Translations under genes and position numbers: made by a program | The notes under the pieces: generated by a model | What the model was told of the DNA's origin: nothing | Database searches by the model: none | Seen by the model: only the letters and a program-made list of their open reading frames with translations | Source: Lutimonas halocynthiae | Lineage (GTDB): Bacteria > Bacteroidota > Bacteroidia > Flavobacteriales > Flavobacteriaceae | DNA: 64,000 nt | Direction: 5' to 3' | Assembly: GCF_030409835.1 (NCBI RefSeq) | Contig: NZ_JAUFQO010000002.1 | Span: forward strand, 124,001 to 188,000 | Shown: one piece after another, positions 20,608 through 26,512 of the stretch | Layout: each line of letters starts with the position of its first letter | Position numbering within the stretch: position 1 is the first letter of the stretch

Positions 20608-20629
20608 AACCCTAGGTTTAATTAGGGTT
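20608..20629 (-). terminator. Weak hairpin downstream of the peptide array
   Basis: Arms AACCCTA (20608-20614) and TAGGGTT (20623-20629) with an 8-nt loop; on the minus strand it is followed by TTCTGCTTTT. It could end a transcript coming from the array, but the U-tract is interrupted. Confidence 0.3.
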
Positions 20630-20724: not shown

Positions 20725-20793
20725 TTAATAATCGTAGTTTCTTTTTTCTGACCAACTTACTCTTTTGCTTTTTTTGAATATTGTAGTTCTCAT
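20725..20793 (-). CDS. 22-aa diverged peptide, array copy 5 (3' end of array)
   Basis: Keeps the MRTTIF start, the SKRV-x-WS centre and RNY near the end, but has KK for NN at 7-8, S13 for R, EK for AH at 16-17 and ends DY. The reading frame is intact although the nucleotide sequence has diverged, which suggests it is or was translated. Confidence 0.5.
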   Translation of the reverse strand: MRTTIFKKSKRVSWSEKRNYDY

Positions 20794-20832
20794 AATATTA
20801 ATTTTAATAGTTGATAATTAGGTTTTGTTGGA

Positions 20833-20907
20833 TTAAGATTTGATAGCGTAATTTCTGTGTGCTGACCATCTTACTCTTTTACTGTTGTTAAATATTGTAG
20901 TTCTCAT
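20833..20907 (-). CDS. 24-aa cationic peptide, array copy 4
   Basis: Same peptide as copy 1. The ORF differs only at Tyr20 (TAC instead of TAT), synonymous. Confidence 0.6.
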   Translation of the reverse strand: MRTTIFNNSKRVRWSAHRNYAIKS

Positions 20908-20946
20908 GATATTATTTTTGATAATTGATAATTAGGTTTTGTTGGA

Positions 20947-21021
20947 TTAAGATTTGATAGCATAATTTCTATGTGCTGACCATCTTACTCTTTTGCTATT
21001 GTTAAATATTGTAGTTCTCAT
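20947..21021 (-). CDS. 24-aa cationic peptide, array copy 3
   Basis: Same peptide as copy 1. The ORF differs at Asn8 (AAT), Ser9 (AGC) and His17 (CAT), all synonymous. Confidence 0.6.
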   Translation of the reverse strand: MRTTIFNNSKRVRWSAHRNYAIKS

Positions 21022-21060
21022 GATATTATTTTTGATAATTGATAATTAGGTTTTGTTGGA

Positions 21061-21135
21061 TTAAGATTTGATAGCATAATTTCTGTGTGCTGACCATCTT
21101 ACTCTTTTGCTGTTGTTAAATATTGTAGTTCTCAT
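21061..21135 (-). CDS. 24-aa cationic peptide, array copy 2
   Basis: Encodes the same peptide as copy 1. The only ORF difference is Ser9 AGC instead of AGT. It is separated from copy 1 by 40 bp. Confidence 0.6.
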   Translation of the reverse strand: MRTTIFNNSKRVRWSAHRNYAIKS

Positions 21136-21175
21136 GATATTTTTTTTGATAATTGATAATTAGGTTTTGTTTTGA

Positions 21176-21250
21176 TTAAGATTTGATAGCATAATTTCTG
21201 TGTGCTGACCATCTTACTCTTTTACTGTTGTTAAATATTGTAGTTCTCAT
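21176..21250 (-). CDS. 24-aa cationic peptide, array copy 1 (most 5')
   Basis: ORF on the minus strand reading M-R-T-T-I-F-N-N-S-K-R, then VRWSAHRNYAIKS and TAA. Net charge is strongly positive (five Arg, two Lys, one His), with one Trp, no Cys and no hydrophobic signal segment. It differs from copies 2-4 only at synonymous sites. It is too short to be reported by usual gene callers. The role is unknown: free peptide, translation-coupled leader or secreted signal are all open. Confidence 0.6.
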   Translation of the reverse strand: MRTTIFNNSKRVRWSAHRNYAIKS

Positions 21251-21481
21251 AATTATTGTTTTGTTGGTTACACTTATAAGACGACACATCTTCAAACATG
21301 TTACAGTACTATGTAAAACAAAGTACTATTTTAACAAATATTTCACACTAAATTATGTTAATTCATTGTTAGTCAGAACAATAAAAATATGTTAAAAAAT
21401 CAAAAATATTTTTATTAACGTATTATTGGCACGATTTACTTCGAGTTTTCTCGAAATAATTATCGAATTGACATAAAAAAA
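21251..21481. other. AT-rich gap upstream of the peptide array
   Basis: About 230 bp, very AT-rich, expected to contain the promoter of the minus-strand array. I found no clean TAnnTTTG box. Two AGTACT palindromes lie at about 21306 and 21321. No gene seen. Confidence 0.4.
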
Positions 21482-21504
21482 GCCTTCTGTATATCACAGA
21501 AGGC
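21474..21504 (-). terminator. Intrinsic terminator after the PQQ-propeller gene
   Basis: Arms GCCTTCTGT (21482-21490) and ACAGAAGGC (21496-21504), 5-nt loop, followed on the minus strand by TTTTTTTATG. It is 24 bp downstream of the stop codon at 21529 and separates that gene from the peptide array. Confidence 0.85.
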
Positions 21505-21528
21505 CCAATTCTTATTCTTTTTATGTTT

Positions 21529-26357: not shown

Positions 26358-26432
26358 TTATGATTTGAGGGCATAGTTTCTATGCGCAGACCATCTCACT
26401 CTTCTTGTATTATTAAATATTGTAGTTTTCAT
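26358..26432 (-). CDS. 24-aa member of the small cationic peptide family
   Basis: Same length as the array peptides and nearly the same sequence: M-K-T-T-I-F-N-N-T-R-R, then VRWSAHRNYALKS. Compared with array copy 1 the protein changes are R2K, S9T, K10R and I22L, all conservative, while Asn7, Asn8, Val12, Ser15, Ala16, His17, Asn19, Ala21 and Ser24 use different codons. That substitution pattern is the best evidence in the window that the family is translated. Confidence 0.6.
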   Translation of the reverse strand: MKTTIFNNTRRVRWSAHRNYALKS

Positions 26433-26512
26433 AATTTTAATTTTTAAATCTGTTATTATTTGAAGGCGATTTGACGGATTTTTTTTGATTACATTACAGC
26501 CCAATCGTTTTT

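Follow-up and report, generated by a model that had tools for sequence, protein, structure and literature searches.

What does a run of five nearly identical open reading frames (ORFs), none longer than 24 codons, do in the genome of Lutimonas halocynthiae, and does it owe its presence to the peptides it could encode? The window analysed here is a stretch of 64,000 nucleotides from this genome (positions 124,001 to 188,000 of contig NZ_JAUFQO010000002.1), in which an earlier note, made from the sequence alone, had described five minus-strand ORFs with a 114-bp period. This description is borne out: successive ATG starts are 115, 114, 114 and 114 nt apart (Table 1), and Tandem Repeats Finder reports a period of 114 with 4.5 copies and 94% matches. 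Copies 1 to 4 encode the same peptide, as had been claimed, and the four codons that differ among them (Asn8, Ser9, His17 and Tyr20) differ only synonymously; copy 5 is diverged, yet it does keep MRTTIF, WS and RNY in frame. ORFs of 24 and 28 codons fall under the length floor of common gene callers. The array lies between a beta-propeller-type gene and an SRPBCC-like gene (both named by eye) and evidently forms a unit of its own, bounded by two terminator-like hairpins, one belonging to the preceding gene and one 3' of the array; two such hairpins were observed in the array region against a mean of 0.2 in shuffled sequences. The array is real, and it is part of something larger than was first described.

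Table 1. Features of the array and of a second tandem pair, in coordinates of the window.
Feature	Position	Strand	Remarks
Terminator-like hairpin of the gene preceding the array (12 pairs, T tail)	21480..21506	minus	
Conserved GTTAAAATA element, upstream of the dyad and overlapping into it	21319..21337	minus	
Dyad, putative operator AGTACTTTGTTTTACATAGTACT, abutting the −35	21305..21327	minus	related sites upstream of PadR operons
ECF-sigma-like promoter GTAAC-N16-CGTC (−35 at 21300-21304, −10 at 21280-21283)	21280..21304	minus	
Array ORF 1, 24 aa MRTTIFNNSKRVRWSAHRNYAIKS plus stop	21176..21250	minus	ATG at 21250; homologues in same-genus genomes
Array ORF 2, peptide identical to ORF 1	21061..21135	minus	ATG at 21135
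Array ORF 3, peptide identical to ORF 1	20947..21021	minus	ATG at 21021
Array ORF 4, peptide identical to ORF 1	20833..20907	minus	ATG at 20907
Array ORF 5, diverged, 22 aa	20725..20793	minus	ATG at 20793; final stop codon of the array ends at 20725
Terminator-like hairpin 3' of the array (7 pairs)	20608..20629	minus	
Possible weak promoter of the second pair, GTAAT-N16-CGTC, by resemblance only	26473..26497	minus	
Second tandem pair, ORF 1, MKTTIFNNTRRVRWSAHRNYALKS	26358..26432	minus	
Second tandem pair, ORF 2, 34 aa	26221..26325	minus	

The synonymous differences had been taken as the pattern expected for selection on a translated product. The window array by itself is weak evidence for such selection, because the spacers of copies 1 to 4 are themselves 83-100% identical; the decisive evidence is comparative. 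The codon-substitution test that had been suggested gave a pN/pS ratio of 0.29 when 23 Lutimonas copies of the 24-aa form were compared in all pairs and, across the wider family described below, of 0.29 for 38 within-array pairs of a 28-aa type and 0.35 for 63 pairs of a 37-aa type; these are uncorrected proportions from pairs that are not independent, with identical pairs excluded from both within-array counts (28-aa and 37-aa). The ORFs are also better conserved than their surroundings. Of 125 pairs of copies, 119 have a higher identity in the ORF than in the 45 nt after the stop codon, and in 111 the ORF also exceeds the 45 nt that lead up to the ATG; median identities are 0.79 for the ORF, 0.56 after the stop and 0.60 before the ATG. 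Equal conservation of codon positions and spacers, which had been named as a pointer to an RNA or DNA repeat, did not appear; conservation differs between them. The claim of selection on a translated product is supported by these comparisons, which show, as far as sequence can, that the array ORFs are protein genes under purifying selection.

By similarity, the peptide is a member of a Flavobacteriaceae family of tiny basic proteins of about 22-45 aa with a C-terminal motif resembling W...R.Y. Individual units mix peptide subtypes, which were counted by rough motif: 28 aa, ending W-N-x-K-R-R-Y-like (98 peptides); 37 aa, ending W-(A/S)-x-x-R-N-like (94); about 44 aa, ending I-W-K-G-x-K-R-Y-A-H-like (29); and about 38-40 aa, with G-W (16). 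The C-terminal W-N-x-K-R-R is invariant in all 22 aligned peptides of the 28-aa type. The median charge of 232 distinct peptides is +6 (1 to 9) and their median GRAVY is −1.27; because the W motif was the criterion for choosing these peptides, a Trp is present in each of them by design, and 228 have no second one. For four representatives, the helical moment was not significantly above that of shuffles (fraction of shuffles reaching it: 0.87, 0.47, 0.14 and 0.14), and AF2 predicts a single helix, weakly (pLDDT 66). Inspection by eye revealed no signal peptide or double-glycine leader. Library searches returned no match for nine representatives in Pfam and NCBIfam, for 22 peptides of the 28-aa type in PHROGs, for four representatives in PADLOC, or for the window and 20 loci in Rfam, and neither plasmids queried with one 28-aa peptide nor phages queried with one 37-aa peptide gave a match. 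Sequence strings likewise found nothing in the literature, a weak result since sequences are seldom printed and subscription papers lie outside the search; topic words turned up no named arrays of this sort among the matches listed. One site (L184) has four near-identical tandem 29-aa ORFs behind the standard promoter, encoding a peptide that lacks Trp and ends LGYFKRRIA.

A lack of homologues with an intact frame in related genomes had been named as a ground for doubt. Such family members are present in 15 of 21 other same-genus genomes, and the six genomes without a match are drafts of 61-84% completeness. Elsewhere in the source genome (4.0 Mb), on other contigs, are five paralogues that are longer, at 37-38 aa; neither these nor the second tandem pair of Table 1 figured in the earlier note. 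The longer form carries ...TES(R/K)...F...(S/T)KR(I/V).W(S/A)..RN(Y/F), and the 24-aa form of the window is without its middle segment. Used as a query, the 24-aa peptide matched in none of 18 genomes outside the genus; profiles reach further, and a scan of genome contigs found loci in Lutibacter, Kriegella and Eudoraea as well. In an order-level sample, the first profile matched in 10 of 296 genomes, only five of them at E < 1e-9 and the others weakly. A profile of the 28-aa type matched, at E up to 0.001, in 131 of 397 Flavobacteriaceae genomes. Either this profile (at the same threshold) or the promoter 16-mer ACANAGTACTGTAACA was found in 169 of the 397 and both in 65, the former count including one genome (G442) with a chance 16-mer site and a few weak profile matches.

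The sequence before the first ORF of the arrays resembles a compound promoter, made up of a GTTAA element, a dyad TACTWTGT-N3-RCAWAGTA and an ECF-sigma-like pair GTAACA-N16-CGTC. A strict pattern of the dyad, AGTACNNNGTNNNACNNNGTAC, occurs only at arrays in three Lutimonas genomes and at no other place in the source genome. A GTAAC-like box followed after N16/17 by (C/A/T)GTC lies no more than 150 nt ahead of the first ATG in 38 of 49 distinct units and is absent from this stretch in 11; most of the 38 also have an imperfect dyad abutting the box and a GTTAA element further upstream. The 16-mer is present in 103 of the 397 Flavobacteriaceae genomes, at one or two per genome and 113 sites, compared with seven matches for the reversed 16-mer in the same genomes. 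At 106 of the 110 sites outside Lutimonas that were examined, a mini-ORF (20-50 codons, with an end motif like W-x(2-4)-(R/K)-(Y/F/R/H/N)) lies 40-330 nt downstream, against 0 of 110 in antisense and 23 of 2200 after block shuffling. Two motif ORFs were counted at 51 of the sites, three at 31, four at seven, one at 17 and none at four. Of the four misses, L184 and L234 carry family-like ORFs beyond the strict motif and L281 a secreted-type protein, while L260, where the 16-mer falls inside a coding frame of G442, was rejected as a chance match. Exact GTAAC-N16-CGTC is found at 104 of 109 aligned family sites (L260 excluded). The census shows the array units to belong to a Flavobacteriaceae-wide set of predicted mini-protein operons, mostly tandem, with one compound promoter.

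A search that began with the peptides gave a similar picture. The 30 best-scoring profile loci, which are not a random sample, all have GTAAC-N15-17-NGTC within 330 nt upstream; 18 of them carry the exact 16-mer and so overlap the 16-mer census. All 12 loci lacking it have GCA in place of ACA, with one further change at L357. In a sample of 395 genomes across the phylum, the 16-mer was found in nine, five Flavobacteriaceae and four others. In each of the four others it lies within a long frame and is taken as a chance match, so that the exact 16-mer is seen as a promoter only in Flavobacteriaceae. A second promoter type is represented by eight single-ORF units (L012, L039, L054, L056, L068, L070, L077 and L079), which keep a GTAAC-N17-CGTC pair and have a GTTAA-N6-GTTAA direct repeat in place of the AGTAC dyad; we take this repeat to resemble an OmpR/PhoB-type box. 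Two other loci (L011 and L086) have single family ORFs with a conserved GGTAAGTCAnAATTTACC upstream instead of the ECF-like promoter. Secreted-type proteins also occur behind the ECF-like promoter, with 113 aa at L138, L143 (twice) and L171, and also at L281; those of L171 and L281 fall within an array unit, and the L138 protein has no Pfam match.

Clues to the control of these units come from other genes that share parts of the promoter. The dyad was sought with one mismatch in 16 genomes, and 16 non-array loci were examined. Seven of these (L308, L318-L322 and L324) have a PadR-like gene downstream, preceded in six cases by a DUF4870-like gene (both by eye), and Pfam identifies DUF4870, PadR (PF03551) and a HAAS+PspC protein in the L320 operon. 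All seven PadR sites have the GCA half, as in the 12 variant arrays; the chance site L323 does likewise. Sites of the PadR-operon type (one mismatch) occur in only eight of the 16 genomes, seven of them examined. At five further loci (L309 and L325-L328) the dyad is more symmetrical, close to TACTTTG-N5-CAAAGTA, and the operon that follows is a different one, whose regulator (about 97 aa) looks winged-helix-like by eye. The other four look like chance matches, three inside coding frames (L323, L330 and L331) and one at a gene end (L329).

The −35/−10 pair likewise extends beyond the arrays. In three Lutimonas genomes, which are close relatives, GTAACA-N15/16-CGTC has 58 matches; of 43 distinct sites examined, 30 are noncoding and 22 have an ORF of at least 100 aa within 70 nt downstream. 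The reversed pattern has 43 matches in the same genomes, and the 29 examined include none that is noncoding and none before such an ORF. Raw counts for the pattern and its reverse are 22 versus 15 in the source genome, 21 versus 12 in G011, and 15 versus 16 in G013 (no excess). Genes downstream of the pair, as identified by Pfam, encode OEP/TolC, MacB/FtsX, Rce1-like and DUF4870 proteins. Given the dyad before PadR operons and the −35/−10 pair before TolC, MacB, Rce1 and DUF4870 genes, the arrays look like the output of an envelope-stress circuit, with one other regulator having a similar dyad. Sharing of the operator points to control by a PadR repressor, and the shape of the promoter suggests control by an ECF sigma factor.

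We propose that the array is an operon switched by stress, under PadR and ECF control, whose tiny cationic proteins act at the envelope; we give this reading about an even chance of being correct. A PadR-type repressor from a DUF4870-PadR-HAAS/PspC operon, which has the same kind of operator, would keep the array unit off, and the HAAS/PspC protein would sense membrane stress, leading to release of the unit from PadR repression. An ECF sigma factor reading GTAACA-N15/16-CGTC would drive the array together with the TolC-, MacB-, Rce1- and DUF4870-type genes, and the tandem copies would provide a quick, high dose of peptide from one short transcript. Since the switch resembles a cell-envelope stress switch, the proteins probably help the cell to cope with surface damage. 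More tentatively, we favour the idea that the peptides (about +6, hydrophilic, with a Trp and a C-terminal Arg/Tyr cluster) are cationic effectors that may help to stabilise an anionic partner at the envelope by binding to it, the likeliest candidates being the inner membrane and a membrane protein. Binding to the membrane is a guess, because the helical amphipathicity is not significant and the fold prediction is weak.

The proposed wiring has parallels in other systems. HAAS-PadR has been proposed as a membrane-stress circuit (PMC11237479), and the L320 operon, with its related operator, encodes DUF4870, PadR and HAAS+PspC in the manner of the HAAS-PadR/PspC systems; the accessible portion of that paper, however, does not mention mini-protein arrays, which are linked to such systems here by the operator only. 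Listeria has the PadR repressors LstR, found with the sigma-C operon, and LftR, which answers to antibiotic (PMC6624303). As described in the accessible text, these likewise combine a PadR-type repressor with a sigma factor, but in another phylum and with other targets, and no peptide array appears there. An ECF-type promoter class, SM6, has been described in Flavobacterium psychrophilum (PMC9723704); the genes named for it in the portion seen differ from the arrays, being T9SS and Band-7 genes, and the terms “small protein” and “PadR” are absent from the text of that paper. In our judgement, the combination of PadR and ECF is of a known sort and the mini-protein arrays themselves are new. The proposed reading of the arrays would give HAAS-PadR/PspC circuits an output and offer a tractable starting point for studying how the Flavobacteriaceae control envelope stress, and the promoter is constant enough to serve as a tag for finding and testing the system.

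Several other explanations must be weighed against an envelope-stress operon. The frame might be incidental to a repeat at the DNA or RNA level or to a structured small RNA. This reading could draw on the window spacers, which are nearly as alike as the ORFs, but it is already contradicted by the codon evidence (pN/pS of 0.29-0.35), by the excess of ORF over post-stop identity in 119 of 125 pairs and by the empty Rfam search of the window and 20 loci; it is almost certainly not the answer. It is highly improbable that these are leader peptides controlling a downstream gene by attenuation. At 26 of 110 array sites (for example, L168 and L183) the 1.5 kb downstream contains an ExbD-like motif on the same strand, but the other 84 sites lack it; among clustered loci, neighbouring genes are syntenic within Lutimonas and mostly different between genera, which argues against a fixed downstream gene; and a terminator-like hairpin follows the window array. 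Of the three readings that the earlier note had offered, the small-protein cassette fits, whereas the leader peptide family fits poorly because the unit comes with a promoter-like sequence and a terminator-like hairpin of its own and its neighbours vary between genera. Also very unlikely, in our view, is a type I toxin-antitoxin array in which every repeat would include an antisense RNA, despite the several copies of tiny tandem ORFs and the sigma-70-like match that four repeats show on the plus strand. Promoter-like matches are at the level of shuffles (6 versus 7.4), from a sigma-70 scan that served for hairpins and shuffle comparison, such scans being ill-suited to Bacteroidota promoters. 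Across the family, moreover, the surroundings of the ORFs are poorly conserved between copies. Type I toxins are mostly hydrophobic, whereas the 232 peptides are hydrophilic (median GRAVY −1.27, charge +6). Ibs/Ldr-type arrays also consist of tandem, multi-copy tiny ORFs, but these are hydrophobic and paired with antisense RNAs.

Two readings that give the peptides a different site of action carry more weight. The peptides might be intracellular regulators whose basic C terminus binds RNA polymerase, the ribosome or nucleic acid and throttles growth under stress. Their hydrophilic character, median charge of +6 and GRAVY of −1.27 (in peptides selected by the W motif) and the invariant W-N-x-K-R-R of 22 aligned 28-aa peptides are consistent with this proposal, which we nonetheless consider unlikely, given that representatives match no known family and that the promoter class, where its genes can be named, consists of envelope genes. 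Alternatively, as in the multi-copy secreted peptide that the earlier note had offered, pumps of the MacB/HlyD/TolC type might carry the peptides out of the cell, where they would affect neighbours or serve as signals, like the products of a leaderless multi-copy operon. In staphylococci, phenol-soluble modulin operons carry leaderless peptide ORFs in tandem (about 20-26 and about 44 aa), and the peptides form amphipathic helices. The arrays are alike, going by description, in having several tandem leaderless peptide ORFs, with 28, 37 and about 44 aa mixed in one unit; they differ in that their peptides are hydrophilic and strongly basic, with a helical moment not above that of shuffles. Phenol-soluble modulins are exported by an ABC transporter, where the arrays offer only co-occurrence with exporter-type genes: MacB- and TolC-type genes have the same promoter pattern, and the HlyD, ABC and MacB genes of Lutibacter, like a HlyD homologue in Lutimonas, have small ORFs upstream. 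Against export stand the lack of a visible signal peptide or double-glycine leader, the conservative evolution of the peptides (pN/pS) and the absence of an adjoining exporter gene at most clustered loci, and we think it improbable. Equally doubtful, in our view, is its fuller form, a Flavobacteriaceae peptide system undescribed in the literature searched, in which each genome would have one or two dedicated operons that, controlled through PadR-mediated sensing of membrane stress and an ECF sigma factor, would make several kinds of leaderless cationic peptide at once for export by MacB/TolC and action on the surface or on neighbours. Export, if it occurs, would put these peptides in a class of their own among multi-copy bacterial peptides. 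The arrays appear to be a new kind, because for each named kind that could be tested a defining feature is missing here and none of the libraries tried contains a model for these peptides.

Small ORFs of the family also occur in a second setting, next to HlyD-type exporter genes. In Lutibacter flavus (L049), two of them lie upstream of HlyD, ABC and MacB/FtsX genes and beside a divergent sigma-54-type response regulator and kinase. In the source genome (L008), one small ORF adjoins homologues of the L. flavus HlyD protein and sigma-54-type regulator; the locus as examined ends at these homologues, and ABC and MacB genes were seen at the L. flavus locus only. The ECF-like promoter was not found at these HlyD-linked loci in L. 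flavus and the source genome. The leader of the L. flavus locus contains a stretch that, by eye, resembles a −24/−12 promoter.
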